Origin: Saccharospirillum sp.
GTDB taxonomy: Bacteria; Pseudomonadota; Gammaproteobacteria; Pseudomonadales; Natronospirillaceae
Length of the DNA stretch: 64,000 nt
NCBI GenBank assembly: GCA_018402545.1
Contig: JAGYIL010000002.1
Coordinates: 248,001-312,000, forward strand
Direction of reading: 5' to 3'
The position numbers were made by a program, and so were the translations under genes. The notes under the pieces are model-generated. The model was not told the DNA's origin and searched no databases. It was given only the letters and a program-made list of their open reading frames with translations. How positions within the stretch are numbered: position 1 is the first letter of the stretch; each line of letters begins with the position of its first letter. Shown piece by piece: positions 6,566 through 40,226 of the stretch.

Positions 6566-6763
6566 GTTCAAGTTTCGGAGTTCGGGATACTAGGGTGGCG
6601 CTCGTCCGTGGCGGCTACCGGTGTTGCCTCTGCGGGGTCGGGCGGAATGCCGCCCACTCAATCCATCCCTGGAGCCTAGACCGCAGCATCCCTGCTGCGG
6701 ACTTCCCCGCAGAGGCAACACCGGCATCCGCCACTCGTATTGTGGGAACTCCGAAACTTGAGC
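6566..6763 (-). repeat. Long palindromic element, copy A
   Basis: Outer arms at 6566-6583 and 6746-6763 contain a perfect 15-bp pair (CAAGTTTCGGAGTTC). Inner arms at 6608-6637 and 6705-6734 contain a perfect 20-bp pair (CCGGTGTTGCCTCTGCGGGG). The core at 6638-6704, read on the minus strand, starts AGTCCGCAGCAGGGA and forms an 8-bp hairpin CCGCAGCA/TGCTGCGG with a GGGA loop, then a GGGATGG-type motif and CGACCCC. It lies between two convergent genes and could also act as a bidirectional terminator, but lacks a T run. See copies B, C, D, F, G and H. Confidence 0.85.
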
Positions 6764-6799
6764 TACCTGAGAAGTTGACCCGTTTTTCATTGTGGTCAA

Positions 6800-7459
6800 C
6801 TAAACGTGTGAATCGGGGTTTTCCGGGTCGGCACCCAATGCGTTCTCCGGCTCAGCCTCAGGTTCCATCTGCTCCCGTAACCAACTCTCCAGCTCCGCAA
6901 CACCGTCTTTTTTCAGCGAGCTGAACAATTGCGCCGAGAGCCAATTGGCTTGCGACTGCAATTGACTGCGTACTTTCATCAGGGTGGTTTTGGCCGGGCC
7001 CTTCTTCAGTTTGTCGCTCTTGGTCAGCAGAGCGCGCAGCGGCATCTGGGTCTGGATCGCCCAGCGCACCATCATCTCATCGAACTCAGTCATCGGGTGG
7101 CGTACGTCCATCACCAGCACGATACCCTTCAGGCTGTGGCGATCGGCCAAATACTCACCGATGTTCTTTTCCCAGTCTTCCTTCATATCCCGGTTGACCT
7201 TGGCGTACCCGTACCCCGGTAAGTCAACGAGACGGCAGTTCTCGGTCGACAACGAGAAATAGTTGATCAACTGGGTGCGGCCCGGCGTTTTCGAGGTACG
7301 GGCCAGTTTGGAATTGCGCGTCAGCGCATTCATGGCGCTGCTTTTGCCCGCATTAGAGCGACCCGCAAAGGCCACTTCAGCGCCGCTGTCAGGAGGGCTC
7401 TGTTGCAGATGTTGGGCACTGGTCAGGAATCGGGCGGAATCAAATCGCAAAACCGACAT
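6800..7459 (-). CDS. engB: Ribosome biogenesis GTP-binding protein YihA/YsxC
   Basis: Essential GTPase of the TrmE-Era-EngA-YihA-Septin-like group, needed for late assembly of the large ribosomal subunit. The 219-residue protein has G1 GRSNAGKSS, G3 DLPGYGYA, and G4 TKSDK. The C-terminal tail after about residue 200 is acidic (EPEAEPENALGADPENP), a common feature in gammaproteobacteria. It is transcribed away from cytochrome c4, as in Pseudomonas where engB, cytochrome c4 and dsbA are neighbours. Confidence 0.96.
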   Translation of the reverse strand: MSVLRFDSARFLTSAQHLQQSPPDSGAEVAFAGRSNAGKSSAMNALTRNSKLARTSKTPGRTQLINYFSLSTENCRLVDLPGYGYAKVNRDMKEDWEKNIGEYLADRHSLKGIVLVMDVRHPMTEFDEMMVRWAIQTQMPLRALLTKSDKLKKGPAKTTLMKVRSQLQSQANWLSAQLFSSLKKDGVAELESWLREQMEPEAEPENALGADPENPDSHV

Positions 7460-7572
7460 TGGGGGTCTCTCAATGGGGGTTAAAAACCGGCAGTGTACCT
7501 GAAATCGGGCCCGGACGGAGTGCTGTTCACCGGTCGATGTTCAATTAATACCCACTCAGGGCGCGGGGTTTC

Positions 7573-7601
7573 TTCTCAACACCCTCCCGGGTCTATATAA
7601 T
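7573..7601 (+). promoter_or_regulatory. Putative sigma70 promoter of the cytochrome c4 gene
   Basis: A perfect -10 TATAAT at 7596-7601 is preceded, with 17 bases between, by TTCTCA at 7573-7578 (four of six matches to TTGACA). It points at the cytochrome gene 94 bases downstream. Confidence 0.6.
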
Positions 7602-7694
7602 GCCCGGTCATATTACCGGTGTGGTCAGAATCCGGATCCGTGCATATCCGTTCTGATGACCGACCTTTTCCACCTTTGACGTGCGGGACGCGAC

Positions 7695-8327
7695 ATGAAA
7701 AAACTGATCGTAGGCCTTGCCATGCTGGCCGGCATTTCCGGCTTTGCAATGGCCGAGGGCAATGCTGAAGACGGCGAACAATACACAGAATCCTGTGCCG
7801 CTTGCCACGGGGCCGACGGCAACAGCGCTGCCGCTTCCTTCCCCAAACTGGCAGGCCAGGGTGAAGCCTATCTGCTCAAGCAGATGATCGACGTCCAGAA
7901 TGGTGATCGTGTGATCACTCAAATGTCCGGTCAGCTCGACGGGCTCGATGAAGACCAGTTGGCCGATATCGCTGCCTTCTACGCCAGCCAGGACAAAACT
8001 GTCGGCAATGCCGATCCGGATCTGGTCGCTCTGGGCGAGCAGTTGTATCGCGGCGGCAACCCGGAAACCGGCGTGCCCTCCTGTGCAGGCTGTCACTCTC
8101 CCACCGGCGCGGGCAATGCGCCTGCCGGTTACCCGATGTTGTCTGGTCAGCATGCCGGCTACATCGAAAGCCAGTTGTACAAGTTTCAGCGTGGCTATCG
8201 CGCCTCTGAACCCAGCGACGAAGTCCGTACCAACGATGGCGAATCCCGCGTTATGCGCTCAACCGCCTTCCGTCTGAAAGACTTCGAAATTGAAGCGCTG
8301 GCCAGTTACATCAACGGGCTGCACTGA
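7695..8327 (+). CDS. Cytochrome c4 (periplasmic dihaem cytochrome c)
   Basis: Electron carrier that donates to terminal oxidases such as the caa3/cbb3 types. The 210 residues begin with a signal peptide (cut after about residue 20, GFAMA). Two cytochrome c domains follow, with haem motifs CAACH near residue 35 and CAGCH near residue 133, and distal Met ligands in each half. The length is normal for cytochrome c4. It is followed by a rho-independent terminator and then dsbA. Confidence 0.94.
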   Translation: MKKLIVGLAMLAGISGFAMAEGNAEDGEQYTESCAACHGADGNSAAASFPKLAGQGEAYLLKQMIDVQNGDRVITQMSGQLDGLDEDQLADIAAFYASQDKTVGNADPDLVALGEQLYRGGNPETGVPSCAGCHSPTGAGNAPAGYPMLSGQHAGYIESQLYKFQRGYRASEPSDEVRTNDGESRVMRSTAFRLKDFEIEALASYINGLH

Positions 8328-8385
8328 TCCAAAACCCGGATTAAACCGGCCGTTCAGGCCCAGTTAACCCGAGGTAAAGACAATG

Positions 8386-8422
8386 AAAAGCGAAGGACCG
8401 GTTCAAGGCCTTCGCTTTTTTT
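8386..8422 (+). terminator. Rho-independent terminator after cytochrome c4
   Basis: Stem AAAAGCGAAGG at 8386-8396 pairs with CCTTCGCTTTT at 8409-8419 across a 12-base loop and runs into a T tract ending at 8422. Confidence 0.9.
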
Positions 8423-8488
8423 GTGGGTGGCTTTCAGGCAAAGTGTCGGCCATTCCCCTATTCTGGTCCTCTTGTGGAGATCCAACCT

Positions 8489-9121
8489 ATGTTTAAACGT
8501 GTGATGTTGTCCGCGCTGGCACTGATGGTGCTGGTTGCCGGTTCCGCTACTGCAGAAGAATTTCAGGCAGGCACCCATTATCAGGTATTGCCGGAGAAAC
8601 TGCCGACCAGCTACCGGGGTGAAGAAGCGGGTGAGATCATGGAGATCTTCAGCTACAGCTGCATTCACTGTTTTAACCTGGAACCCTTTGTGACTTCCTG
8701 GAAACAAGGCAAGCCCGATGACATTCGCTTTACCCCGGTGCCTGTGCTGTTCAATGACCGCCAGATTCCGGAAGCCAAAGCCTATTATGCCGGTCAGTTT
8801 CTGGACGTTATTGCACAGAGTCACCCGTCGATTTACAACGAAATCCATATAAACCGGAACCGCCTGTCATCCGATGAAGACTTCGCTGAAATTTTTGAAC
8901 GCTTCGACATCAGTGAAAGTGAATACATGGACATGGCCAACTCTTTTGCCGTTAATACCCGCATTTCTCTGGCGCAGAAAATTACCCGGATGAGCCAGAT
9001 TCAAGGCACACCCAGCCTGGTCGTAAACGGCAAATACCTGATCTCCGGGCAAATGGCCGGCGGCAACGAGCGGATGTTCACCGTCGCTGAATGGCTGATT
9101 CGCAACGAAGACCAGCTGTAA
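8489..9121 (+). CDS. dsbA: Thiol:disulfide interchange protein DsbA
   Basis: Periplasmic oxidase that introduces disulfide bonds into exported proteins and is re-oxidised by DsbB. The 210-residue protein has a signal peptide (about 1-25, ending SATA), a thioredoxin fold with a helical insertion, active site C58-I-H-C61, and the cis-Pro loop GTPSLVV. The active site reads CIHC instead of the usual CPHC, so the residue after the first Cys is Ile, not Pro. Start 8489 has a GGAGA sequence nearby and begins the signal peptide; the frame is open further upstream. It lies between cytochrome c4 and an EEP hydrolase as in Pseudomonas. Confidence 0.93.
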   Translation: MFKRVMLSALALMVLVAGSATAEEFQAGTHYQVLPEKLPTSYRGEEAGEIMEIFSYSCIHCFNLEPFVTSWKQGKPDDIRFTPVPVLFNDRQIPEAKAYYAGQFLDVIAQSHPSIYNEIHINRNRLSSDEDFAEIFERFDISESEYMDMANSFAVNTRISLAQKITRMSQIQGTPSLVVNGKYLISGQMAGGNERMFTVAEWLIRNEDQL

Positions 9122-9243
9122 AGGTTCACCGGAACCAACTGCCCGATAACATCGTATTACCGGTTGCGCTACACTGAGTAGCCAGCCGGCCCTTCTGTTT
9201 TATCTTTGTCTGCCGTCGGGTCACTATCTACAGGAGCCCGTCA

Positions 9244-10059
9244 ATGAGATCGAGCCACCTTGATTACGAATTCCCGGTTCACCTCAGTGACCCCAAGGAG
9301 TTCTATCGCAAGGCCGACCCGGACCATCTGACGCTACTGAGTTTCAACATTCAGGTCGGCATCAACACCCGACACTTTCCCGATTATTTTTTGAAATCCT
9401 GGCAGCATGTCTGGCCCAGCCGCTCTCGCCAGCACAACCTGGATCGAATCAGCGATCTGATCCGTCACTTCGATGTGGTCTCCTTGCAGGAAGTCGATGG
9501 CGGCAGTTTTCGCACCGGCTTTGTCAACCAGGTGGAATACCTGGCAAAGAAATCCGGTCAGCCTTACTGGCACCAGCAATTGAACCGCAATCTGGGACGC
9601 TTTGCGCAACACAGCAATGGGTTGATTTCCCGCTTTGAACCTCACCGAATCGACACCCACGCCCTGCCCGGTTTGCCTGGCCGGGGTGCCATCGTGGTTC
9701 AGCTTGGCGACGAACACCCGGTTGTTATCGTCATGTTGCACCTGGCGTTGAGCAAAAAAGCTCAGGACCAGCAACTGCGCTTCATTCGCAATCTGATTCA
9801 GCAATACCATCATGTGATTGTGATGGGTGACATGAACACCCACAGCCTGAGACTGCTTAACGACTCTCCGCTGCGCGAATGCGGCCTCAAGTCGGCCCAT
9901 GCCCGGGCTACGTTTCCCAGTTGGCAGCCCCACCGCTGTCTCGACCATATTCTGGTCAGTCGTCATCTGCGCATTGTGCGCATGGGTGTACTGGACTTCC
10001 CGCTGTCAGATCACCTGCCGGTTGCGCTTGAAATAGAGTTGCCGGAACTGGCTCGATAA
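9244..10059 (+). CDS. Endonuclease/exonuclease/phosphatase (EEP) family hydrolase
   Basis: Metal-dependent phosphodiesterase-fold protein of 271 residues, cytoplasmic (no signal peptide). Motifs in order: LSFNIQVG near residue 31, VVSLQEVDGG with the metal-binding Glu near residue 84, a HLALSKKAQ stretch, MGDMNTHS with Asp and Asn near residue 196, and the final SDHLPVALE with the catalytic Asp-His pair. An AGGAG precedes the ATG closely. The Pseudomonas counterpart sits in the same place between dsbA and a diguanylate cyclase. Substrate unknown; a nuclease or a phosphoesterase are both possible. Confidence 0.88.
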   Translation: MRSSHLDYEFPVHLSDPKEFYRKADPDHLTLLSFNIQVGINTRHFPDYFLKSWQHVWPSRSRQHNLDRISDLIRHFDVVSLQEVDGGSFRTGFVNQVEYLAKKSGQPYWHQQLNRNLGRFAQHSNGLISRFEPHRIDTHALPGLPGRGAIVVQLGDEHPVVIVMLHLALSKKAQDQQLRFIRNLIQQYHHVIVMGDMNTHSLRLLNDSPLRECGLKSAHARATFPSWQPHRCLDHILVSRHLRIVRMGVLDFPLSDHLPVALEIELPELAR

Positions 10060-10140
10060 AAGCGGCTTGGCAGATCGGCGCGGCGCCAAAGCGCTGCTAT
10101 ACTCGCATCAGCTAGGGTAATTTTTCAGCAAGGTATCGGC

Positions 10141-10161
10141 ATGGGTATGTGGGACGAATGA
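10141..10161 (+). other. Possible six-codon leader ORF before the diguanylate cyclase
   Basis: ATG GGT ATG TGG GAC GAA TGA encodes MGMWDE. Its TGA overlaps the ATG of the cyclase gene (AATGA). An AAGG sequence lies about eight bases upstream of the leader ATG. The cyclase start itself has no good ribosome-binding site, so coupled re-initiation is plausible. It could also be chance. Confidence 0.3.
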
Positions 10162-11594
10162 GCGAAATACAGGACTTGTTGCGGCGCGGCGTACTGGACT
10201 TATCCATCATGGTACGGGGCATTGACCGCGAGCTCGATGAAACGCTGGATCAGCTTAAACTGGCTTTGCGTCAACGCAACGATCTTGATGCCGACGCTTT
10301 TGGCAAAGCCCTGGAAGCCACCGATAAGCGCTTTGACCTGATCGAAAGCCGCACCGAAGAAGGTGTTAGCCAGCTCTATTCACTCTATCAGCTGCTGGTC
10401 GATACTGACGACGAGCGCGTCCCGGACTCACTGATACGTCATCTCAATCAGCGCAGCCCCTACGTCCAGGATGCACTGTCGCTGGCACATCAAATACAAC
10501 CTCTGGTCTCAGTGGTCGCTGAACCGGATGCCGACAACAGCACCCTGGTTCGACTGCGGCAAAAGCTCTGTTCACGCTTTATTACTCTGTTACGCACCCT
10601 GGCCATCCTGGGCGATGAAGACGGTGCTTTGCGCGCATTGGCCGCCCGACTGGAGCCAATACCGGACTGGTCGACGCTGGATGTACTGGCGGCCGAGACT
10701 ATCATGTTGATCCAGACTCGACTTAACCAGGAAAAAGGTAAGTTCGAGTATTACCTCAATGAACTAAATGCCAAGCTGATCGCCATCAACCGCCTTATTG
10801 GTGAAGACCAGGCAGCGGTCTCCGACTTGCAGACCCTCAACGAAAGTCTGAACGCCAATGTCGACCACCAGCTGGAGCGAGTGCGTACCGAGCTGGAGTC
10901 AGCCACCGATATGCAGGCTTTGCGGCTGGCCATGACGCACTCCATGGACGATTTGCTGGGCGTTTTAGGCGAGTTTCAGGACCAGGTAAAAACCAGCCTG
11001 TCAGCCATGCACCAGCGCCAGGCAGAACTGAACGAGCAACTGACGTCATTGCAGGCCGATAACCACAAGCTGATCGAGCAGGTGAATCAGGAACGCGAAT
11101 TATCATTGCGCGATCCGCTGACTCAGTTGCCCAACCGGCAAGGATTTGATGCCCGGCTCGCCGAGGAAATCGCCCGCAGCGAGCGTTACCAGCAACCTTG
11201 CTGTGTCGCCCTGATCGACATTGACCTGTTCAAAACCATCAATGACCAGTACGGCCATCTTGCGGGCGACAAAGTGCTCAAGGTGCTGGCCAAGGAAATG
11301 CGCAGCCAGTTACGGCAGTCGGACTACCTGGCCCGGTTTGGCGGGGAAGAATTCGTTTTGTTGCTTCCCCAGACTCCCATCAATGCAGGCATGCAGGCCG
11401 TTGAAAAAATGCGACTGCACATCAGCCAGTGCCCGTTCAACTTTCAGGGTAAACCAGTCCAGATTACCTTTTCTGCCGGCGTATCGGCCTACCGCAACGG
11501 TGAATCAGCCGATCAATGGCTGCATCGTGCCGATGAGGCGCTTTATGCCAGCAAAGGCGCTGGTCGTAACAGAACAACACCGGCTGATGGCTGA
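10158..11594 (+). CDS. Diguanylate cyclase (GGDEF domain, coiled-coil N-terminus)
   Basis: Makes c-di-GMP from two GTP. The 478-residue protein has no membrane segment. Residues 1 to about 310 are helical and largely coiled coil. The GGDEF domain at about 315-475 carries active site GGEEF (395-399) and an allosteric I-site RQSD five residues before it, so the enzyme is probably active and product-inhibited. It occupies the position of dgcH (PA5487) in Pseudomonas, next to the EEP gene. Start: the ATG at 10158 overlaps the stop of a six-codon leader ORF at 10141-10161; a GTG at 10149 is the in-frame alternative. Confidence 0.92.
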   Translation: MSEIQDLLRRGVLDLSIMVRGIDRELDETLDQLKLALRQRNDLDADAFGKALEATDKRFDLIESRTEEGVSQLYSLYQLLVDTDDERVPDSLIRHLNQRSPYVQDALSLAHQIQPLVSVVAEPDADNSTLVRLRQKLCSRFITLLRTLAILGDEDGALRALAARLEPIPDWSTLDVLAAETIMLIQTRLNQEKGKFEYYLNELNAKLIAINRLIGEDQAAVSDLQTLNESLNANVDHQLERVRTELESATDMQALRLAMTHSMDDLLGVLGEFQDQVKTSLSAMHQRQAELNEQLTSLQADNHKLIEQVNQERELSLRDPLTQLPNRQGFDARLAEEIARSERYQQPCCVALIDIDLFKTINDQYGHLAGDKVLKVLAKEMRSQLRQSDYLARFGGEEFVLLLPQTPINAGMQAVEKMRLHISQCPFNFQGKPVQITFSAGVSAYRNGESADQWLHRADEALYASKGAGRNRTTPADG

Positions 11595-11625
11595 GTATAA
11601 ACAACCCGCACCCGATTTCAGGCAG

Positions 11626-14034: not shown

Positions 14035-14198
14035 AGCTCAACATCCATTTATTAGCTCCGGGCTTAGGCAGGCAGTAGCACGGCAGTCGAAGAGGGAGAT
14101 GGTCACCTCAACCTCACCCGGGAGGTAATCCATTAGAAAAGCCGGGTCACTTCACTGTCCGCTTTCCAGAACAATGCACAAGGACCACAGCCCCAAGA

Positions 14199-15957: not shown

Positions 15958-16273
15958 GGAGCCTCTGAACAACTCCCCTGGGGCTCTGGCTTATCCGAGG
16001 GACGTTTCCGCGAGGCGGACTTGGACTTATGCAGGAATGTCTAGACCTTTCAAATGAGTCCAACAAAGTAGCAGCGTTCCTCGGAAAGTCGGAATGCCGC
16101 ACCACCCGTAGGGCGCGGCTAAAACGTCCTGCCCCGGCGTTGCACTTCTTGACAAGGGCTACGGCCATTGCGCTGCGAAGTGCGTAGGACTGGGCCGGCA
16201 CTCCGGTGCCGCCCACTTGGCCAAAACGTTTTAGCTCGCGCAGAGCCTTGGGGGAGTTGTTCAGAGGGGCTCC
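15958..16273. mobile_element. MITE with IS5-like ends and CTAG target duplication
   Basis: A 316-bp non-coding element. The left end GGAGCCTCTGAACAACTCCC and the inverted right end (GGAGCCCCTCTGAACAACTC read inward) match over about 30 bp. A direct repeat CTAG flanks it (15954-15957 and 16274-16277); CTAG fits the YTAR target of IS5-group transposases. No transposase reading frame is inside; the minus-strand frame at 15947-16216 is a by-product of composition. It would need a transposase in trans. Confidence 0.75.
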
Positions 16274-16506: not shown

Positions 16507-16702
16507 GTGCTGGCGGCCGGTAGGTCTATCCGGGGTAGTCCGCAGCAGGGACTAAAACGCCAGGAGCGTTTTAGCATGAGCGCAGCGAACCCGAAGGGTG
16601 AATCCCATGGACGGGATTCATATCATGCGGTCTAGGCTCCAGGGATGGATTGAGTGGGCGGCACTCCGCCCGACCCCGGATAGACCTAGCGGTTGCCAGC
16701 AC
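16507..16702 (+). repeat. Long palindromic element, copy D
   Basis: Arms at 16507-16536 and 16673-16702 match at 27 of 30 positions (GTGCTGGC at the ends, TAGGTCTATCCGGGGT at the inside). Two of the three mismatches are G-T wobbles on the plus strand. The core reads AGTCCGCAGCAGGGA, hairpin CTAAAACGC/GCGTTTTAG (16552-16574), hairpin TGAATCCC/GGGATTCA (16599-16620), then TGCGGTCTAGGCTCCAGGGA and CGACCCC. It sits between gyrB and its terminator, so it is present in the gyrB 3' untranslated RNA in antisense orientation. Confidence 0.85.
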
Positions 16703-21397: not shown

Positions 21398-22882
21398 TCA
21401 GGTGGTCAGCGTTCGTAACAGGTTGTTGTAATCTTCGTTGATGTCCAGGGTGGTTTCGCGCAATTCCCTGACCTTGCGACAGGCGTGCAAAACCGTTGTA
21501 TGGTCGCGGCCGCCAAAGGCTTCACCAATTTCCGGCAAGCTGTGCTGGGTCAGTTCTTTGGCCAGGGCCATCGCCACCTGACGCGGACGTGCAATGCTGC
21601 GACTGCGTCGTTTGCTGTGCAGATCCGATATCTTGATCTTGTAGTACTCAGCCACGGTGCGCTGAATGTTATCAATACTGACTTGTTTGTCCTGCAGCGC
21701 CAAGAGGTCTTTCAACGACTCTTTAACAAAGGCGGTATTGATCGCCGCCCCGGTAAACTGCGAATTCGCTACTACCCGTTTCAGAGCACCCTCGAGTTCC
21801 CGCACATTCGACCGGATCCTCTGGGCGATAAAGAAAGCCGCATCGGCCGGCAGTTTAACTCGCTGCTTTTCCGCCTTCTTCATCAGAATCGCCACCCGGG
21901 TCTCCAGATCTGGCGGTTCCACTGCGACGGTCAGGCCCCAGCCAAAGCGACTCTTCAGACGATCTTCCAGACCTTCGATTTCCTTGGGGTAACGATCGCA
22001 GGTAAGAATTACCTGCTGGTTCCCTTCGAGCAAGGCATTAAAGGTATGAAAGAACTCTTCCTGAGAGCGGTCTTTCTTGGCGAAAAATTGTATATCGTCA
22101 ATCAACAGAGCATCGAGACTTCGGTAAAACCGCTTGAACTCGGCCATGGCATTGAGCTGCAACGCCTTAACCATATCCGCTACAAAGCGTTCCGAGTGCA
22201 AATAAACCACTTTGGCGCCAGGGTTCTGATCGACAATATGATTACCAATTGCCTGCATCAGGTGGGTTTTACCCAGACCAACGCCTCCGTATATAAACAG
22301 TGGGTTGTAGGCACCCCCGGCGTTATCGGCCACCTGCTGACTCGCCGCCAGGGCGAGCTGGTTTGACTTGCCCTCTACAAAGGAAGCAAAGCTGAAACCG
22401 GGGTTCAGGTAACTTTGAAACTTGCCCTTGCCACGTTGAGAGCCCGTCGTTTGCACCGGCATCGGATCATTGTTCAGTCGCTCAGCCACAACGGAAGCGG
22501 GCTCGGTTGTTGACACCTGGCTATCAGCCTGAGCTGATTCCGGATCTACCAGGGAACCGGACTGAGCGTTGTTGTCGTTGCCGGTAGTGGCGGGTTGCTG
22601 CGGTTCCGGTGCACGCCGCGCCGGACGCGCCGGACGACCGGACCGGGCACTGACTTCTACAAGCACTTCCGCCCCGGTCGCACCAAACTGATTCATCAGT
22701 TCCTGAATACGGTGTAAATACTTGTCCCGGACCCAGTTACCCACAAAACGGTTGGGTGCCAGCAACACCAGCGCCTCACCATCCTGTCGATGGCTCAGGG
22801 GGCGGATCCAGGTATTGAACTGATGCGAGGGAACCTCTCCGCGCAGCAGGTCAAGACACTGTTGCCAGGCTGAATCGGGCAC
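21398..22882 (-). CDS. dnaA: Chromosomal replication initiator protein DnaA
   Basis: AAA+ initiator that binds DnaA boxes and opens oriC. 494 residues: domain I (1-80, [17 protein letters not shown]), a long Ala/Gln/Pro-rich linker domain II (about 85-160), AAA+ domain with Walker [10 protein letters not shown] and Walker B LLIDDIQF, and a C-terminal HTH with the signature [12 protein letters not shown]. Transcribed away from oriC. First gene of the dnaA-dnaN-recF-gyrB block. Confidence 0.98.
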
Positions 22883-27424: not shown

Positions 27425-27693
27425 ACTCAAGGTTTAGAGTTCAGTTTGCTTGGGTGCCTATCGCCCGCGACGGCTACCGGTGGTACCTCTGTGGGGTCGG
27501 CGTGAATCCGTCCTGGCGGTCCGACGTCTCGGGCCTAGGCCGCAGGAGATGAATCCCATCCCTGGGATTCACCCTCCGGGCTCGCTTCGCTCATGCTAAA
27601 ACGCTCCTGGCGTTTTAGTCCCTGCTGCGGACTACCCCACAGAGGTACCACCGGCATCCGGCGCTCATAACCTACGAACTCGAAAACTTGAGT
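27425..27693 (-). repeat. Long palindromic element, copy B
   Basis: Outer arms 27425-27442 and 27676-27693 match at 16 of 18. Inner arms 27477-27496 and 27635-27654 are a perfect 20-bp pair (CCGGTGGTACCTCTGTGGGG). Compared with copy A three positions differ in the inner arm, each matched on the other arm. The core holds hairpins TGAATCCCA/TGGGATTCA (27550-27571) and CTAAAACGC/GCGTTTTAG (27596-27618); read on the minus strand it starts AGTCCGCAGCAGGGACTAAA. It fills most of the 320-base gap between the convergent mnmE and hydrolase genes. Confidence 0.87.
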
Positions 27694-31760: not shown

Positions 31761-31819
31761 GATTCATTGGGCGGCTGTGGTAAACTGCGCGCCTCATTAC
31801 ACGGTTTTAAGAGGCGACC

Positions 31820-32161: not shown

Positions 32162-32209
32162 TGGATCATATACATATCACTGCGCGCCCGCTTTTCAGGA
32201 GTATTCCCC

Positions 32210-32506
32210 ATGCAAGACCCAACCAAGACTGAACTTGAAGCGGCGGCGTTTCGCCGCTTAGTGCAGCATTTGCAGGAACGCACCGATGTGCAGAACATCG
32301 ATATGATGAATCTGGCGGGTTTTTGCCGCAATTGCCTGTCGCGCTGGTATCAGGAAGCCGCCAGCGAGCAAGGTGTCGACATCGATAAAGACAGCGCCCG
32401 CGAGGTGGTTTACGGCATGCCCTACGATCAGTGGAAAGCCAAATACCAGACCGAAGCCAGCGATGCCCAACAGGCCGCTTTCTCACAACAGGCGAAGCAT
32501 GACTGA
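32210..32506 (+). CDS. DUF1244 family protein
   Basis: 98-residue helical protein with the family pattern HLQERTDVQNIDMMNLAGFC, then RNCLSRWY and GMPYDQWKAKYQ. The two Cys in FCRNC are conserved in the family. Function unknown; soluble. An AGGAG lies ahead of the ATG. Overlaps the next gene by eight bases, which indicates co-translation. Confidence 0.92.
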   Translation: MQDPTKTELEAAAFRRLVQHLQERTDVQNIDMMNLAGFCRNCLSRWYQEAASEQGVDIDKDSAREVVYGMPYDQWKAKYQTEASDAQQAAFSQQAKHD

Positions 32507-33200: not shown

Positions 33201-33222
33201 TCCGTTGAACCTACCCCTGTGG

Positions 33223-33433
33223 CATGAGTTAAAAATTCGCAGGACAATTGGCAAAGGTGCTCACCATTACCTACTTGCCAAGCGGATCACCAGGTACACC
33301 TGCTGAAGGTACGCCGTAAACCCGTCCATGGGGGCTCGAAGATCGCGTCCCTGCGATCTAACGACCTCCAGCAGGTGCACCTGGCGATCCTTGGGTAGAT
33401 CGAGGTTGATCTCAAGCGAATTTCTAACTCATG
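33223..33433 (-). repeat. Long palindromic element, copy F
   Basis: Outer arms 33223-33240 and 33416-33433 (CATGAGTTAAAAATTCGC) match at 17 of 18. Inner arms 33284-33305 and 33369-33390 (GGATCACCAGGTACACCTGC first) match at 20 of 22. All three mismatches are A-C on the plus strand, that is G-T wobbles on the minus strand. The core on the minus strand has hairpin GATCGC/GCGATC with an AGGGA-type loop, then CCCCCATGGACGGGTTTAC. It lies between the SEC-C gene and the MATE gene. Confidence 0.82.
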
Positions 33434-33475
33434 ACGATCGTCTGAGTCTGGCCAGTCAAAAAAGGAGTTTTTAAG

Positions 33476-34822
33476 ATGCTGGCGCTGTCCTATCGTCGCA
33501 TTGTGAGTCTGGCGTTACCCATCAGCCTGCAAGCCTTGCTGACCTCATCATTGAGCGTGGTCGATATCTACATGGTCAGTTCCCTTGGTTCAGCCGCCGT
33601 CGCTGCTGTGGGGTTGATCAGCAAGGTTTACTTCGTTGCTCTATTGATCGCCATAGGTTTGAGCGGTGGTGTTTCGATGCTGGTGGCGCAGTATTGGGGC
33701 GCTTCTGATCGTATCGCTGTGCTGGGGTATTTGTGGACCGGTTTAGCCTGGTGCGGGCTGGCGATGTTGCCGCTGACGGTGATGGCGCTGTTCTTTACCC
33801 AGCCCATGGCCGGTCTGTTATCGCCGGATGACGCAGTGGCTGGCATGGCCGCCAATTACTGGTTCTGGACTTTTCCCTTTGCTGCCCTCTCCGGCTTCAG
33901 TTTCTTGCTGGCGAGTGTACAACGCGCCACCGGTGACACCCTGTGGCCAATGGCGGCCAGCGGCCTGGCGCTGCTGACCAATACATTGCTGAACTATCTG
34001 GTGCTGTTTGGGCCTTTCCCGGTGCTCAATATTGGTCTTGCCGGTGTTGCCTTTGCATCGGTCGCTTCAAGGGTGCTGGAGCTGGCCTTGCTGCTGTTTC
34101 TGTTGCGTCGCCATTTGCAGGTGATCTGGGTATGGTCGGCGGATCGGTTCTGGGAAGTCTGGCGCTATGGCCGGGTGCTGATGCTGAACGAGGGCCTCTG
34201 GAGTGCAGGTATTTTTGCCTTCTTTCTGGTCTATGCCTACATGGGGGCTGCGCCTTTGGCGGCGATGAGTCTGATGTCGCCGCTGGAGAACGTGATCGTC
34301 GATCTGTTCATTGGCTTTGGCATAGCGGCGTCGATTCTGATTGGCCAGCACCTGGGCCGGCACGAATACGATGAAGCCCGGGCGCTGTGCTACTTCTTTC
34401 TGAATAAAATTACCCTGGCGTCAGCCTTACTGGCGGTTGTTCTGGCAATGATGACGCCTTGGGTGGTTGGCGCCTTTGCCTTTGTGGAAGCGCCGGTTCG
34501 GGAGTTGCTGGCCGGTGTCTGGCTGGTGTACTGCATCGGCTTGCCGGTGCGCACTCACAACATGCTGGCGGTAATTGGTATTCTGCGGGCGGGTGGCGAT
34601 AATCGGTTTGTGCTATTGACTGAAGCTATTTCACTCTGGTTACTGGCCGTACCGGTATCCGCGCTGGTCGCGCTCTGGCTGGGCTGGCCGCTGTGGGCCG
34701 TGGTTGGAGTAACGGTGCTGGAAGAGTTGGGTAAAGTAGCGTTGTTCCGGTGGCGAACAGGCCGGGGTTACTGGCTGAGAAATCTGACGTCGAAGCCTGG
34801 CTCCGACGTCATGTCAAACTGA
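33476..34822 (+). CDS. MATE family efflux transporter
   Basis: 448-residue inner-membrane exporter with about twelve helices in two halves, opening RIVSLALPISLQALLTSSLS, typical of NorM-type MATE proteins. It is only distantly like the DinF-type gene at 1426. GGAG lies eight bases before the ATG. The promoter must lie within or just after palindrome F. Substrate unknown. Confidence 0.87.
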   Translation: MLALSYRRIVSLALPISLQALLTSSLSVVDIYMVSSLGSAAVAAVGLISKVYFVALLIAIGLSGGVSMLVAQYWGASDRIAVLGYLWTGLAWCGLAMLPLTVMALFFTQPMAGLLSPDDAVAGMAANYWFWTFPFAALSGFSFLLASVQRATGDTLWPMAASGLALLTNTLLNYLVLFGPFPVLNIGLAGVAFASVASRVLELALLLFLLRRHLQVIWVWSADRFWEVWRYGRVLMLNEGLWSAGIFAFFLVYAYMGAAPLAAMSLMSPLENVIVDLFIGFGIAASILIGQHLGRHEYDEARALCYFFLNKITLASALLAVVLAMMTPWVVGAFAFVEAPVRELLAGVWLVYCIGLPVRTHNMLAVIGILRAGGDNRFVLLTEAISLWLLAVPVSALVALWLGWPLWAVVGVTVLEELGKVALFRWRTGRGYWLRNLTSKPGSDVMSN

Positions 34823-34854
34823 CTGATTGCAGTTCAAATGATCAGGGCGGCTGG

Positions 34855-35481
34855 TCAGAAGCGGTAGCTAAGTACCGTGCGAATTGAAACGGTTTGCACG
34901 TCGACGTTGCCGTCGAAGAATTCTTCGTAGTTGTCGCCGAAATGCCAGTCGGCCTGAATATCCAGACCCAGCTCATCCCAATTGTAGCCACCGCCACCGC
35001 CCACGTAGAAACCGCTGATGCGAGTGTCTTCGAAGCCTTCCTGTTCAACGGTTTCTGCGTAGTAACCCAGGCTGCCATAGTATTTGGTGCCATAGCGGGC
35101 AACGCCACGCCCCAGTTTGGCGCCCACATCCCAGCCGATCAGGTAGACGTCGGAGTCGCTGGTGACAATCTGTTTGTAGTGATAGCTGCCCTGCAAGGCA
35201 AAGGCGCCAATACCGGCTTCAATATCGAGGGACGGGCCGACAAAGGCGTCGTATTCGCTCTCATCGGGGTAGACCCAGACCGAGGAACGTACGCCGGCGC
35301 CAATGGCAAAGCCGCCCAGATCGGCCAGTGCTTCATCGCCATGACAATGGTATTCGCCGGTAACGGCGTCGTTGTGGCAGTCGAACCGATCCAGTGCACC
35401 GGGGTCGGCCCAGGCCATTGGATGAATAACCAGAGCAGCCAGAGTGGCCAGTGGCAAGCTGAGACGAAGCGGCAGGTGCAT
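34855..35481 (-). CDS. Outer-membrane beta-barrel protein with YHYH-like N-terminus
   Basis: 208 residues. A signal peptide ends near residue 25 (HPMAWA). A short Cys/His segment DCHNDAVTGEYHCHGD follows; such CHxx...YHCH motifs occur in YHYH and Excalibur-like domains that bind metals. The rest shows alternating strands with many Tyr, Gly and Asp and ends in SYRF with a terminal Phe, the outer-membrane barrel signature. About eight strands fit. Function unknown; metal-binding surface protein is inference. Confidence 0.7.
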   Translation of the reverse strand: MHLPLRLSLPLATLAALVIHPMAWADPGALDRFDCHNDAVTGEYHCHGDEALADLGGFAIGAGVRSSVWVYPDESEYDAFVGPSLDIEAGIGAFALQGSYHYKQIVTSDSDVYLIGWDVGAKLGRGVARYGTKYYGSLGYYAETVEQEGFEDTRISGFYVGGGGGYNWDELGLDIQADWHFGDNYEEFFDGNVDVQTVSIRTVLSYRF

Positions 35482-35568
35482 GGGTTAACTCCTCATTTTT
35501 ATCCTGATCAGTGTATCACAGCCTTGCCATGCGGCCAGTGGCGGCGTTGTCAGATGAGAACCGGGTCA

Positions 35569-36462
35569 TCATATGGCACCCAGATCAAAGCTATGAAAAC
35601 GACGAATCAGATGGTCCCGTACCACGGCGACGCGTTTTGGCAATTCACTTCTCTGCGCCCAAACCAGCCAGAGTGAGGTGTTTTCAATCTCCCAGTCGGG
35701 CAGAACCTGCACCAACCGACCCTGCTGCAAGGGTTCACGAAGCACTAGGTTCGATAGCCGGGCAATGCCCAGCCCCTGCTCGGCGGCCAGTAACTGAGCC
35801 TGGCTGCTGGGTGCATGCCAGCTGCCCTGGGGGTAATGAACGTGGTGGTCATTGCCCCGCCGGAATTGCCAGGATTTGGGCGTGCCGGTAATGCAATTGA
35901 AGTCGCCCAGTTCACTGGGATGCCGCGGAAACCCGTGCTGGTTCAGGTAGCGGGGGCTGGCACAGAGCATCAGGCGCAGTCGGCCAACTCGTTCAGCGGC
36001 CACCCCGCTGCCCGGGTCATCACCCCCGCGCAGTACCAGATCCACCGGGTCCTGGTTCGGGTCGACCCGGGCGCTGCTGAAATCGATCTGAAACTGCAGT
36101 TGCGGATGCTGGGCGGCAACCTCAGTCAGCATGCGCGCCAGGTAGTGCTCACCCAGAATACCGCCCACCGAGTTGATGCGTACCGGCCCGGATAAGCGGT
36201 CAGCCATCATTTTCAGGCTATGCTCGGCCGCATCAATCTGATTCAAACTCGACTGGGTGCGCAGGCGAAAATGCTCGCCTTCCGGTGTTAGCGACACACT
36301 CCGGGTAGTCCGATGCAGCAGGGTTATCCCCAGCCGGGCCTCCAGCTCGGCCACTCTCTGACTGATGCGCCCTCGGGATATCGACAGTTTCTCCGCCGCC
36401 CGGGTAAAACTCCCGGCGTCACAAATCGCAAGAAAGGCCTCAATCTCCGCAAAACGATCCAT
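35569..36462 (-). CDS. LysR family transcriptional regulator
   Basis: 297 residues: N-terminal winged HTH (MDRFAEIEAFLAICDAGSFT, SISRGRISQRVAELEARLG) and a periplasmic-binding-like effector domain (about 90-290). The HTH and PSELGDFNCITG region place it in the CrgA/YafC/DsdC-like group that often controls reductases and drug-resistance genes. It is divergent from a run of three aldo/keto reductases, which are its likely targets. Effector unknown. Confidence 0.93.
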   Translation of the reverse strand: MDRFAEIEAFLAICDAGSFTRAAEKLSISRGRISQRVAELEARLGITLLHRTTRSVSLTPEGEHFRLRTQSSLNQIDAAEHSLKMMADRLSGPVRINSVGGILGEHYLARMLTEVAAQHPQLQFQIDFSSARVDPNQDPVDLVLRGGDDPGSGVAAERVGRLRLMLCASPRYLNQHGFPRHPSELGDFNCITGTPKSWQFRRGNDHHVHYPQGSWHAPSSQAQLLAAEQGLGIARLSNLVLREPLQQGRLVQVLPDWEIENTSLWLVWAQRSELPKRVAVVRDHLIRRFHSFDLGAI

Positions 36463-36473
36463 TAGTTAGTCTC

Positions 36474-36492
36474 ATTAACGAATAAGGTTAAT
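36474..36492. promoter_or_regulatory. Putative LysR operator
   Basis: ATTAAC-N7-GTTAAT, a perfect 6+6 inverted repeat with LysR-type spacing, 12 bases upstream of the lysR start codon. It suits autoregulation and control of the divergent reductase genes. Confidence 0.6.
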
Positions 36493-36502
36493 TTTTGCAG
36501 GA

Positions 36503-36530
36503 TTATCATCGAAATGATAGCAACTATACT
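36503..36530 (+). promoter_or_regulatory. Putative promoter of the aldo/keto reductase operon
   Basis: TTATCA at 36503-36508 and TATACT at 36525-36530, 16 bases apart, facing the reductases and next to the LysR operator. If used, palindrome C lies in the 5' untranslated region. Confidence 0.45.
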
Positions 36531-36569
36531 CGTTGTCTCATTGTTACTAGTTCTAGATTTGCATTGGAC

Positions 36570-36760
36570 CTAGTGACGGCTGCCGGGTAGGCCTGTTCGG
36601 GGAAGTCTGAGGCATGGACTAAAACGCCGGGAGCGTTTTAGCACGAGCACAGCGAGCCCGATGGGTGGATCCCATGGATGGGATTCATATCCCGAAGCCT
36701 AGGCCCCATGGATGGGTTCATGCCGACCCCGAACAGGCCTACCCGGCAGTTGGCACGAAT
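36570..36760 (+). repeat. Long palindromic element, copy C
   Basis: Arms 36580-36602 and 36727-36749 are a perfect 23-bp pair (CTGCCGGGTAGGCCTGTTCG at the outside, then GGG). Weaker pairing extends outward (GTG/CAC). The core holds hairpin CTAAAACGC/GCGTTTTAG (36619-36641), GATCCCATGGATGGGATTCA, AGCCTAGGCCCCATGGATGG, and GACCCC before the right arm. It is in the same orientation as the reductase operon it precedes. Confidence 0.87.
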
Positions 36761-36847
36761 TCCAGCCACTAAAGGGAGCCCAAACTCCGTTTTTGGCGTA
36801 AGTGGCACATAAGCAAACCATTCCCAATAAACAACCAGGAGCAGATT

Positions 36848-37843
36848 ATGAGCCAGATTGTTCAACACAGACCGCTCGGTAAGACCGGGTATTCCGTCTC
36901 TGAAATCGGCCTGGGCTGTTGGCAGTTGGGTGGTGACTGGGGTGCCCTGCAAGCTGGTCAGGCCGAGTCGGTTTTACAAGCCGCCAGCGACAACGGTGTT
37001 ACCTTTTGGGATACCGCTGATGTATATGGTGGTGGTGAAAGTGAACGGATTATTGGCGAGTTTAACAAAGCGCATCCTGAAACTGACCGCATTATTATCA
37101 CCAAGTCGGGCCGTACCCCCGAATTGTATCCGGATGGCTATAGCCGGGATCGGTTGAAGGCAGCCATCGAAGCATCGCGTGAGCGGCTGCAGGTCGAGCA
37201 GCTCGATATGGTGCAACTGCACTGCATTCCGATCAGTGAGATCAAGCGCGGTGACGTCTTTGAATGGCTTGCCGAGTTTAAACAGGCTGGTCTGATACGC
37301 CAGTTTGGCGCCAGTGTTGAAACCTGCGACGACGCCCGTTACTGCCTCGAAAATACAGAGGTCGCTTCGCTGCAATTAATCGTGAATTTGTTGCGACAAG
37401 ACATGGCTGAATCCATTTTACCATTGGCGCATCAGAAAGAAGTCGGTGTGATTGTGAGGCTTGGTCTGGCGAGTGGGTTGTTGTCTGGAAAAATGACGGC
37501 CGACCATGAGTTTGCCAAAGAAGATCATCGGAATTTCAATCAGAATGGCGATGCGTTCTTTGTTGGTGAAACCTTTGCCGGCCTGCCCTATAAAACCGGC
37601 GTTGCGCTGGCCAGTGAACTGAAAAGTCTGGTGCCGGATGGCATGACGCTGGCGCAGATGTCGTTGCGCTGGTTGCTCGATCAGCAAGGCGTGAGCAGTG
37701 TTATTACCGGCGCAAGCCGACCCGAACAGATCGCCGACAATGCGGCGGTCTCTGCCCTGCCATCTCTTGACAACGAACTGCACACCCACCTGTCTCATTT
37801 CTATCACGACCGGGTGCGCCAGCACATTCGGGGAGAGATCTGA
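36848..37843 (+). CDS. Aldo/keto reductase
   Basis: NAD(P)H-dependent carbonyl reductase with a TIM-barrel fold, 331 residues. Opening RPLGKTGYSVSEIGLGCWQLGG; catalytic Asp and Tyr in DTADVYGGGESE, Lys in IITKSGR, and His in VQLHCIP. The C-terminal NADP site includes VSSVITGASRPEQI. AGGAG precedes the ATG. It overlaps the second reductase gene by one base, so they are co-translated. Substrate unknown. Confidence 0.93.
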   Translation: MSQIVQHRPLGKTGYSVSEIGLGCWQLGGDWGALQAGQAESVLQAASDNGVTFWDTADVYGGGESERIIGEFNKAHPETDRIIITKSGRTPELYPDGYSRDRLKAAIEASRERLQVEQLDMVQLHCIPISEIKRGDVFEWLAEFKQAGLIRQFGASVETCDDARYCLENTEVASLQLIVNLLRQDMAESILPLAHQKEVGVIVRLGLASGLLSGKMTADHEFAKEDHRNFNQNGDAFFVGETFAGLPYKTGVALASELKSLVPDGMTLAQMSLRWLLDQQGVSSVITGASRPEQIADNAAVSALPSLDNELHTHLSHFYHDRVRQHIRGEI

Positions 37844-38784
37844 TGAATTATCGTCGACTGGGTAAAACCGAACTGAAGGTATCCGACATTGGTTTTGGCG
37901 CCTGGCAGTTGGGCAACAACGATCAGTGGGGCGGTATGGATGACACCACGGCTCATCAGTTGGTGGCCGAAGCACTCGACCGGGGCTGTAACCTCTTCGA
38001 TACCGCGCCGAATTATGCGAAAACCAACAGTGAGCGGTTGTTGGGAGAAACGCTGCGCGGCGTGCGCCAGGACGTAGTGCTGGTCAGTAAATTCGGTCAC
38101 AAGCCGGAAGGCGGCACCGATTACAGTGCCGAGGCGTTTCAGGAGAGTCTGCACGGTTCGCTGGAACGATTGAAAACGGATTATCTCGACGTGGTGCTGG
38201 TGCACAGCCCGCCACTGGAAGTATTGAACGGACAGCACCCGATTTGGCAGGCGATGAAAAAAGCGCAAACCGAAGGCAAGGTCCGCTTTTATGGCGCCAG
38301 CACTGATTACGCTTTTGAAGTGCGTGAAACGCTAGAAACCACCGATGCCCAGGTGCTGGAATTGCTGTTCAACGTACTGCACCAGGATGTCCGGCTGGCC
38401 TTTGACCAGGTTCGCGCCAAGGACGTGGGTGTCATCACCAAGGTGCCGCTCGACAGCGGCTGGCTCGGCGGCAAATACAACGCCCAAACCGTTTTCGACG
38501 GCGTACGCAAACGCTGGAGCCAGGCCGACGTTGAACAACGCGCTGCCCTGGTTGAGCAATTAGCCTGGCTACCCACTGCCGATCGCAACCTGGCGCAACA
38601 ATCTCTGGCCTATTTGCTCAGCTACGATGAGGTGTCCAGCGTGATCCCGGGCATTCGCTCCCAGACGCAACTGGACGCCAACTTCGGCGCCACCGGTCAA
38701 CGGTTGTCGGCCGCCGATCGCGCCAGGCTGGAAACCTTCTGGGATGGTTTCACTGACAAAGGCACCCATTTGCTGCCCTGGTAG
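37843..38784 (+). CDS. Aldo/keto reductase
   Basis: Second reductase of the pair, 313 residues, starting MNYRRLGKTELKVSDIGFGA. Catalytic features: DTAPNYAKTNSERLLG (Asp, Tyr), VLVSKFGHKP (Lys), and VLVHSPP (His). C-terminal cofactor motif SSVIPGIRSQTQL. It resembles L-galactose/D-threo-aldose dehydrogenase-like members, but substrate is unknown. Followed by palindrome G and a third reductase. Confidence 0.92.
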   Translation: MNYRRLGKTELKVSDIGFGAWQLGNNDQWGGMDDTTAHQLVAEALDRGCNLFDTAPNYAKTNSERLLGETLRGVRQDVVLVSKFGHKPEGGTDYSAEAFQESLHGSLERLKTDYLDVVLVHSPPLEVLNGQHPIWQAMKKAQTEGKVRFYGASTDYAFEVRETLETTDAQVLELLFNVLHQDVRLAFDQVRAKDVGVITKVPLDSGWLGGKYNAQTVFDGVRKRWSQADVEQRAALVEQLAWLPTADRNLAQQSLAYLLSYDEVSSVIPGIRSQTQLDANFGATGQRLSAADRARLETFWDGFTDKGTHLLPW

Positions 38785-38812
38785 GTCGTGGCTCTTTTAA
38801 CACGGAGGCAAA

Positions 38813-38946
38813 AGCGCAATCGCAACCGGGCACGTTGCTGACGGGTCGCTGCAAGTACACCGAGACGTCGGACCGCCCTGTAAGCTCGACGGTCCCCATC
38901 CATGGGGACCGACGCCCCGTCAGCAACGCACCCGGTCACGATCGCT
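38813..38946 (-). repeat. Long palindromic element, copy G
   Basis: Stem GTTGCTGACGGG (38834-38845) pairs perfectly with CCCGTCAGCAAC (38916-38927). Further out, ACCGGG pairs with CCCGGT (38825-38830 and 38931-38936), with AGCG near 38813 and CGCT near 38945. Inside is a hairpin GGTCCCCA/TGGGGACC around TCCA (38891-38910). On the minus strand this reads CCCCATGGATGGGG, linking it to the other copies. It separates the second and third reductase genes. Confidence 0.78.
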
Positions 38947-39005
38947 TGATGCAGCTTTACCTCTAACTTTTACTTTACACGACCTCGAGTCGTATAGGAG
39001 TCATC

Positions 39006-40001
39006 ATGGAATATCGTCGTCTTGGCCGTTCCGGCCTGAAAGTCTCAGCCCTGTCGTTAGGGTCTTGGGTTACCTTTGGCAAGCAGGTTGATTTGAACGA
39101 TGCCAAAACCTTACTGAAAACCGCTTACGACAGCGGCGTGAATTTTTTCGATAACGCCGAAGGCTATGAAGCCGGCGAATCGGAAAAAATCATGGGTGAT
39201 GCCATTAACGCATTGGGCTTGCCGCGCGATACTTTTGTGGTTTCGTCAAAAGTGTTCTGGGGTGGTGAAAAACCGACACAGCTGGGCTTGTCGGCCAAGC
39301 ACGTGCGCGATGCCTGCGATGCAGCGCTGCGTCGTCTAAAAGTCGACTACCTCGATTTGTTTTTCTGCCACCGCCCCGATGTTGATACCCCCATCGAAGA
39401 AACGGTGCGTGCCATGCATCAGTTGGTGATGCAGGGTAAAATCGTCTATTGGGGCACGTCAGAGTGGAATGCGCAGCAGCTCACCGAAGCCCACGCCATT
39501 GCTCGTCAGGAGCACCTGACGCCGCCAACGATGGAACAGCCGCAGTACAACATGTTCAACCGCGACAAGGTAGAAGGCGAGTACCGGCCGATTTACGAGC
39601 AGTACGGGCTGGGTACCACCATCTGGTCGCCACTGGCTTCAGGTATTCTGACCGGTAAATACCTGGATGGTATTCCCGATGACAGCCGCATGAACCTGCC
39701 CGGTTACGAGTGGTTGAAGGACACCTTGCTCAGCGATGAAGGTAGGGCGCGGCTGGAAAAAGTTCGTCAGCTGAAGCCGATTGCTGATGAGCTTGGCCTG
39801 AGCCTGACGCACCTGTCGCTGGCCTGGTGTTTGAAGAACCCGAACGTCAGCACGGTTATTCTGGGCGCGTCTCGTTTGAGCCAGTTGGAAGATAACCTGA
39901 AAGCGATGGATGTTACTGACAAGCTGACCGATGCGGTGATGGAGCGAATCGATGCGGTGCTGGACAACAAGCCAGCGGGGCCTGAGCGATTCGGGCAGTA
40001 A
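39006..40001 (+). CDS. Aldo/keto reductase (Kv-beta-like)
   Basis: 331-residue reductase of the Kv-beta/YghZ-type subgroup: MEYRRLGRSGLKVSALSLGS, DNAEGYEAGESEKIMG, VSSKVFWGG, LDLFFCHRPD, and long active-site loops around NMFNRDKVEGEYRPIYEQY. C-terminal NVSTVILGASRLSQLEDNL binds NADPH. More distant from the other two reductases than they are from each other. It ends in a strong terminator. Confidence 0.93.
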   Translation: MEYRRLGRSGLKVSALSLGSWVTFGKQVDLNDAKTLLKTAYDSGVNFFDNAEGYEAGESEKIMGDAINALGLPRDTFVVSSKVFWGGEKPTQLGLSAKHVRDACDAALRRLKVDYLDLFFCHRPDVDTPIEETVRAMHQLVMQGKIVYWGTSEWNAQQLTEAHAIARQEHLTPPTMEQPQYNMFNRDKVEGEYRPIYEQYGLGTTIWSPLASGILTGKYLDGIPDDSRMNLPGYEWLKDTLLSDEGRARLEKVRQLKPIADELGLSLTHLSLAWCLKNPNVSTVILGASRLSQLEDNLKAMDVTDKLTDAVMERIDAVLDNKPAGPERFGQ

Positions 40002-40026
40002 TAGTCGCTTGGTTTGTGAGGTGAAA

Positions 40027-40059
40027 AACGGGTCTGGTTAAGTGCCAGGCCCGTTTTTT
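40027..40059 (+). terminator. Rho-independent terminator after the reductase cluster
   Basis: AACGGGTCTGG (40027-40037) pairs with CCAGGCCCGTT (40045-40055), with one G-T pair, and ends in six T. Confidence 0.9.
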
Positions 40060-40113
40060 GTCGTATACGAATTTAAGTATTGGTTGTCGTAGTAAGTGTA
40101 ACCAGCTTAACAA

Positions 40114-40226
40114 GTGACGGGTGCCGGGTGTCCCTATTTAGGGGAGTCCGCAACAGGGACGTTGCGGTCTAGCGCCCATGGATGGGTTCACAGCGACCCT
40201 AAATAGGGACACCCGGTGCCTGTCAC
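40114..40226 (+). repeat. Long palindromic element, copy H
   Basis: Arms 40114-40143 and 40197-40226 match at 27 of 30, and all three mismatches are G-T wobbles on the plus strand. The inner part GGGTGTCCCTATTTAGGG is perfect. The core has hairpin CCGCAAC/GTTGCGG with an AGGGA-type loop, then GTCTAGCGCCCATGGATGGG. It is the shortest copy and lies between the reductase terminator and the MFS gene. Confidence 0.85.

Follow-up and report, generated by a model that had tools for sequence, protein, structure and literature searches.

Intergenic palindromes in such bacteria are usually dismissed as anonymous repeats. Among the described kinds, REP and REPIN elements, with their RAYT transposases, occur as numerous intergenic palindromes per genome, and the REP enzyme reads a stem together with a 5′ tetranucleotide. 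CsrB (RF00018) and RsmZ (RF00166) carry several ANGGA hairpins that hold CsrA, for which the best spacing of sites is ∼18 nt. They belong to the same Rfam clan (CL00106) as TwoAYGGAY (RF01731), which appears in Weinberg 2010 (PMC2864571) and for which CsrA binding has been proposed (PMC4333381). The high-affinity Csr/Rsm (CsrA/RsmE) site is given as a hexaloop ANGGAX on a stem (PMC4005645), and single CsrA sRNAs are described in Alcanivorax (PMC9788540). A RAYT gene between palindromes of its own is the mark of REP and REPIN systems, and terminal inverted repeats with a target-site duplication are that of a MITE.

The DNA analyzed here is a 64,000-nt stretch (the window) of a Saccharospirillum sp. 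genome (GCA_018402545.1, JAGYIL010000002.1, 248,001-312,000), and coordinates below are positions within it. A sequence-only reading had listed five palindromes in the window (A, B, C, D, and H) with a shared core and had argued from matched changes in their arms that the fold is either selected for or copied. We built covariance model R1 from 24 copies, all from the Saccharospirillum sp. genome, and model R2 from 13 rows, two from the genus-mate G005 and 11 from other genera, with none from the Saccharospirillum sp. genome. All five copies lie where they had been placed (R1 E 2e-9 to 1e-21). Element H (40114-40226, plus strand; R1 E 1.3e-21; fold z −9.9) is the 113-nt short form, with hairpin loop 1 at 40154-40161 (CAGGGACG) and hairpin loop 2 at 40177-40184 (CATGGATG). 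Element A (6608-6734, minus strand; R1 E 1.3e-19; fold z −11.2) has a closing stem, hairpin 1, hairpin 2, and an extra GGGCGG hairpin; both of its loops read CAGGGATG (loop 1 at 6687-6694, loop 2 at 6664-6671, minus strand). Two further copies found by R1 lie on the minus strand at 33278-33394 (R1 E 6e-14, R2 E 8.9e-18; fold z −10.8) and at 38816-38945 (R1 E 7.4e-14, R2 E 3.6e-11), the latter with CATGGATG as loop 1 and a degenerate second hairpin.

The remaining three copies are long forms with a hairpin module of ∼73 nt in the first loop. Element B (27467-27664, minus strand; R1 E 1.1e-14) has its module at 27546-27618; in element C (36573-36756, plus strand; R1 E 1.8e-16), which has a tandem-GA central stem, the module occupies 36619-36691; and in element D (16507-16702, plus strand; R1 E 2e-9, missed by R2) comparison with short forms places it at 16552-16624, after CAGGGA of loop 1. 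The limits first given for A and B were right as to location and too wide in extent, as they took in an imperfect flanking repeat of the CTCAAGTTTCGGAGTTCG type outside the 113-nt unit. This outer repeat accompanies only part of the copies.

In the predicted fold of each element, a long closing stem opens at a junction into two hairpins, each with a hexaloop A-N-G-G-A-N directly on a C-G pair. The GGA strands of A, H, and the two added copies fold with z-scores from −9.3 to −11.2, and in each case none of 200 shuffled sequences folded as well; for element D, z is −7.2 for the GGA strand and −8.4 for its complement. As had been noted, three positions of a 20-nt arm distinguish A from B, and the opposite arm matches all three. 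Across the 24 copies, 25 of the 46 pairs changed on both sides, with 132 cells against 38 in shuffled data and no shuffle of 500 as high. The two conditions that the sequence-only reading had set for refuting selection on structure both turn out in its favor. The copies are not recent duplicates with identical arms, the arms differing between copies, nor do the arms decay without compensation: in alignments of four orthologous sites, two-sided change with pairing retained is seen in 30 pairs and one-sided change with pairing retained in eight, while seven pairs are lost in one species or more.

Loop and stem counts were made on 121 copies picked by stem pairing alone, after 29 of the 150 copies listed by R1 had been dropped (more than six mispaired cells in a gapless reading); counts from 117 of the 150 copies preselected for GGA were left out of the loop statistics. 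The stems of the 121 copies contain 134 G·U and 12 A·C, so the GGA strand is the single strand that is kept folded, and it folds lower than its complement in 139 of the 150 listed copies. Such a strand asymmetry is a simple test for any palindrome family. Selection or copying of the fold, as first argued, is thus supported, and can be sharpened to one strand with loops reading ANGGA. The observation of the sequence-only reading is confirmed and its interpretation partly supported; the invariant GGA loops, the kept strand, and two copies had gone unnoticed.

The loops are held while the stems drift with compensation. CANGGANG with a closing C-G forms hairpin loop 1 in 115 and hairpin loop 2 in 119 of the 121 copies. 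The strict TwoAYGGAY loop, AYGGAY, is found in 61/121 (loop 1) and 99/121 (loop 2), ANGGAN being common to both loops and N of loop 1 often A or G. All four loop changes at the four orthologous sites fall at N or X positions. A motif-blind reading of 464 kb ranked ANGGA first among 256 loop motifs (the runner-up, ANCCA, had 13), and in 19 of the 23 long palindromes detected without reference to any motif, one strand and not the other has a stem topped by ANGGA (13/16 in the stretches of genome G001 alone). In 22 copies from ten genomes and five genera GGA stands in both loops of every copy, and two-sided change affects 13 of the 15 core pairs; set A3 took in 22 of the 30 loci L297-L326. Class-wide matches have the hexaloop with closing C-G in 26/28 and 26/28 cases; the class-wide analysis covered 25 loci from a set of 30 (L355-L384), L379 being the Saccharospirillum sp. 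genome itself and L381-L384 left out. By sequence, the element loop equals the published high-affinity CsrA/RsmE site, both loops presenting ANGGAX on a stem (PMC4005645). Literature searches, among them searches for CsrA together with REP or MITE elements and for pieces of the element sequence, listed no account of these repeats as CsrA sites.

At the gathering threshold, Rfam gave no match anywhere in the window, including to RF00018, RF00166, and RF01731. The earlier statement that no named family was known with precisely this core therefore stands as far as thresholds go, and falls short in that TwoAYGGAY is near; it is the nearest known kind. As in TwoAYGGAY, a closing stem encloses two hairpins with A-N-GGA-N loops, and three R1 copies match the whole model with 38.6, 38.1, and 37.4 bits, short of the gathering score of 43. 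Two places elsewhere in the genome, outside the best 150 matches of R1, score 49.6 and 47.8 bits. TwoAYGGAY also has tandem G·A pairs in a stem (PMC4333381), and these occur here in 10 of the 150 listed copies. High-copy dispersal, nested modules, and inversion, together with the subthreshold scores and the frequent A or G at N of loop 1, set the present elements apart from TwoAYGGAY as far as the available descriptions go. They share several ANGGA hairpins with CsrB and RsmZ, although those are single-locus sRNA genes and the present elements are dispersed. In 19 genomes RF00166 yielded two weak matches, none over threshold. Long stems also gave subthreshold matches to Ysr224 and microRNA families, far under the thresholds of those families, and these were rejected.

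R1 found at least 150 copies in the Saccharospirillum sp. genome and many copies in three of five genus-mates, and when a core model trained without the Saccharospirillum sp. genome was run on 274 genomes of the class, 56 had matches. Comparison of species shows gain, loss, and inversion of copies. For 20 copies the orthologous place in G001 was read, and 11 of these places hold no copy or a decayed one, among them the empty site of B, which shares no flank for reading a target-site duplication. The core is inverted in three of the nine filled sites, including that of C, showing that palindrome arms recombine. BLAST of two copies against plasmids gave no match.

The main rival explanation is a non-autonomous mobile palindrome of the REP or MITE type, in which an enzyme would recognize the folded single strand including its GGA loops and stems would be compensated via selection for copying, not for host regulation. 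This agrees with the high copy number and turnover, with near-random orientation to co-directional genes (49 sense vs 39 antisense among the 150 listed copies, four of which have no flanking gene; p 0.34), and with modules that follow ANGGA directly in 39 of 40 copies examined and differ between orthologous sites. It agrees also with a G·U excess whatever the gene context: with misread copies dropped, G·U:A·C is 53:1 in sense, 30:3 in antisense, 43:8 in convergent, and 7:0 in divergent copies, and the excess in antisense and divergent copies means that the neighboring mRNA is not what is selected everywhere. An apparent sense/antisense difference in this ratio (p 0.04, 0.004) was due to few A·C cells and misread copies, and a seemingly stronger decay of divergent copies was an artefact of gapless misreading (26 and 15 mispaired cells; rank test p 0.43). 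Among ten family genomes, the six with a Y1_Tnp gene hold at least 150, 137, 122, 148, 32, and 11 copies, against 13, 5, 3, and 9 in the four without. However, R1 and R2 had no match at E ≤ 1 in the nine loci around Y1_Tnp genes, two of which adjoin other palindromes of a GTAGGAG type, so that a RAYT mobilizer is unsupported by these loci even though genomes with the gene tend to have more copies. In REPs, moreover, the enzyme reads the stem, whereas here the stems vary and the loops are fixed; the closing stem is far longer than in REP and REPIN, and the loop equals the known site of another kind of protein. We regard such a mobile palindrome as an unlikely explanation.

An mRNA 3′-end structure (stabilizer, RNase barrier, or part of a terminator) without a CsrA role would fit the absence of all 150 listed copies from predicted genes, their preference for convergent over divergent gaps (44 vs 14), and their median distance of 50 nt to a gene 3′ end against 125 nt to a 5′ end. 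It is at odds with the sense and antisense counts and with the inverted cores, an invariant GGA loop is needless for a barrier, and no T-run was noticed 3′ of the copies read, making this account quite improbable. Least probable is arm-to-arm conversion or template switching in DNA, which would keep arms complementary without selection on the fold. Long near-perfect arms and the arm recombination revealed by core inversion are in its favor, but strand-symmetric repair alone cannot yield the measured G·U excess, which speaks against conversion as the sole cause, and it leaves unexplained both the invariant GGA loops and the compensation in short internal hairpins across genera.

On balance, the elements are probably a dispersed structured RNA with paired CsrA sites, akin to TwoAYGGAY and turning over fast, that would dock or titrate CsrA when transcribed. 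Lying 23 nt from each other, the loops would occupy both faces of a single CsrA (RsmA) dimer, with the inserted modules supplying further GGA loops, and transcribed copies would act like CsrB and RsmZ, yet from many dispersed sites, by titration or local control. The kept strand would act as RNA; its G·U asymmetry alone is no proof of this, as G·T pairs occur in ssDNA too. Near-random gene orientation, the G·U excess in antisense and divergent copies, inverted cores, and the four of 23 motif-blind palindromes without an ANGGA loop count against this reading. If the loops are CsrA sites, the palindromes become a regulatory layer open to testing in harmless culture-collection strains, and mobile-looking palindromes are linked to a global post-transcriptional regulator. 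Of 19 genomes, 18 have a single csrA gene and the remaining one has three; the gene is canonical in the Saccharospirillum sp. genome. A CsrB-like candidate in the genus, below threshold, may already serve it, which also counts against the CsrA-docking reading.

The data hint that the palindromes form a spreading family of RNAs that bind a regulator and stand near a known, little-understood family. A bolder and rather doubtful extension sees in them a CsrA sponge that spreads itself, as mobile structured RNA across gammaproteobacteria whose dispersed copies would each clamp a CsrA dimer, jointly set the level of free regulator, and lengthen as further GGA hairpins enter their loops. In 18 module-bearing 8-kb loci (Idiomarina, Aliidiomarina, Arsukibacterium, Lacimicrobium, Aliiglaciecola, Bowmanella, Alkalimonas, and one unclassified MAG) R2 had no match at E ≤ 0.01, indicating that the module travels without the element.

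The palindromes A (6608-6734, minus strand), B (27467-27664, minus), C (36573-36756, plus), D (16507-16702, plus) and H (40114-40226, plus) are present in the window as the sequence-only reading described them, and R1, a covariance model built from 24 copies of the Saccharospirillum genome (G000), adds two more at 33278-33394 and 38816-38945. Each element comprises a closing stem of ~30 bp followed by hairpin 1 and then hairpin 2, both with the loop C-A-N-G-G-A-N-G and at a spacing of 23 nt. Nested hairpins differ among copies: a ~73-nt module, inserted in loop 1 of the long forms B, C and D, occurs 40 times in the stretches read (many of these loci having been chosen via a module-bearing copy), directly 3' of ANGGA in 39, alongside hairpins of CGAGACGTCGGACCGCC type (n = 13), GAGTGGGCGGCATTCCGCCC type (n = 20) and two rarer types (n = 4 and n = 3). 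The 4.25-Mb genome holds at least 150 R1 matches; GTCCGCAGCAGGGA occurs, with up to two mismatches, at 216 places versus 40 for the reversed control pattern, and the CCGCARCANGGATGCTGCGGYC pattern at 150 versus 0 for its control. Based on gene prediction with a simple codon model, none of the 150 R1 matches listed lies within a predicted gene, and the 146 with a gene on both sides are co-directional (88; 49 sense, 39 antisense), convergent (44) or divergent (14).

The loops are nearly invariant. Among 121 copies picked solely for their stem pairing, CANGGANG is found in loop 1 of 115 and loop 2 of 119, and both loops keep GGA in all 22 copies compared across ten genomes of five genera, in which 13 of 15 core pairs have changes on both sides. 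Because the R1 training copies came from GGA-holding patterns, we also ran a motif-free control: a scan of the window plus 400 kb of the genus-mate G001, 464 kb together, which yielded 23 long palindromes. Of these, 19 have ANGGA atop a stem on one strand only, none has it on both strands and four have it on neither (13/16 with ANGGA in G001 alone); among 256 gapped motifs ANGGA ranks first, ahead of ANCCA (13; median 1). One long palindrome in the window (15962-16267; 27-nt arms, 252-nt spacer) lacks an ANGGA hairpin and is an unrelated element.

Stem cells of the 24-copy alignment are 97.8% paired, with both-side changes at 25 of 46 pairs, a level reached by 0 of 500 shuffles. Were a palindrome maintained in double-stranded form, G·U and A·C would be expected in equal numbers, because each G·T becomes A·C when the complementary strand is read. 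Excluding two pairs rich in wobbles, the 121 copies (of 150) readable without gaps have 134 G·U versus 12 A·C. Every gene context shows the excess: 53:1 for sense copies, 30:3 for antisense, 43:8 for convergent and 7:0 for divergent. The strand whose two loops read ANGGA (GGA strand) has the lower fold in 139 of the 150 copies listed. Therefore, what counts is a single strand, RNA or ssDNA, and not only within a neighbour's mRNA. All seven window copies also score best with R1 on the GGA strand; the opposite strand is matched in six, much lower (for H, 109.4 versus 41.6 bits).

A high-affinity CsrA site is a hexaloop ANGGAX sitting directly on a stem (PMC4005645), and the genome encodes one csrA gene with a canonical protein. 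CsrA docking or titration is the most likely mechanism that we predict for the family. The palindromes may instead be mobile DNA, which accounts better for their spread, turnover and orientation, or may both spread as mobile DNA and bind CsrA. The window, G000:C4:248001-312000, is syntenic with G001, where 9 of 20 orthologous places read are filled and 11 are empty or decayed, A being reduced to a half-arm remnant. The core is inverted between its arms at three of the nine filled sites (C, G000:C1:985230 and G000:C5:177354, the latter two on other contigs); in-place inversion is likely for C, as both species have the same tandem-GA core, whereas at C1:985230 the core differs between species and was possibly replaced. 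The ~73-nt module is confined to one of the two species at H, C and C5:177354, as are other modules at C5:32369. Across four aligned orthologous sites, pairing has survived changes on both sides at 30 pairs and on one side at 8, and is absent from one or both species at 7; the four loop changes all fall on N or X positions. Large divergence makes replacement by another copy possible at C1:857119 and C5:200740; C5:32189 and C5:191662 look vertically inherited.

For CsrA docking or titration, the nearest comparison is TwoAYGGAY (RF01731; clan CL00106, with CsrB and RsmZ), for which CsrA binding has been proposed and the paired sites put down to CsrA being a dimer (PMC4333381). The R1 family is of like build, and three G000 copies match the whole model at 37.4-38.6 bits, but we do not assign it to TwoAYGGAY because these scores fall below the 43-bit threshold. 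The threshold is passed at two other places in G000 and at places in G001, G004 (a genus-mate), G010 and G223; none of 14 control genomes matched. Two-hairpin palindromes above it at G000:C6:287664-287784 and G001:C11:10978-11098 are similar across both species, with a junction unlike that of the R1 family.

Among the best 150 candidates scored per genome, R1 matches number 137 in G001, 122 in G003, 148 in G004, 13 in G002 and 5 in G005 (all genus-mates), and 32 in G010, 11 in G011, 9 in G012, 3 in G008, 1 in G016 and 0 in G014. A core model (R2) whose 13 training copies include none from G000, two being from G005 and the remaining 11 from outside the genus, recovers copies in 33/33 G000 loci searched and 6/7 window elements, missing D. 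With strict filters, rough E-values and 17 candidates scored per genome, R2 matches 56 of 274 genomes of the class (50 of 222 genera) at E ≤ 1e-3; the best E-value is ≤ 1e-9 in 46 of these 56, G000 included. The 28 matches in 25 of these loci share the core of the family, with CANGGANG in 26 and 26 of 28; their covariation score is reached by 0 of 500 shuffles and G·U outnumbers A·C 13 to 2, counts that lean on the R2 model.

Several minor observations were made alongside. In G010 and G011, RAYT-like genes (Y1_Tnp) adjoin GTAGGAG-type palindromes of a different repeat family (L397 2265-2406, L398 1720-1960). Sub-threshold matches that are possibly canonical CsrA sponges were found in G004 (CsrB-like, 32.6 of 71 bits; L353 1498-1749) and G005 (RsmZ-like, 29.6 of 44 bits; L354 1501-1625). 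In a dnaA-like region of the window (22211-22291), AsdA, an RNA antisense to dnaA mRNA, is matched at 29.2 bits, under its threshold of 52. By eye, around CTAAAACGCCNGGAGCGTTTTAG matches, the ~73-nt hairpin module directly follows GTTC(G)A in Idiomarina, Aliidiomarina, Lacimicrobium and Aliiglaciecola (L122, L132, L133, L134), which would fit insertion into the T-loop of tRNA/tmRNA 3'-end copies.
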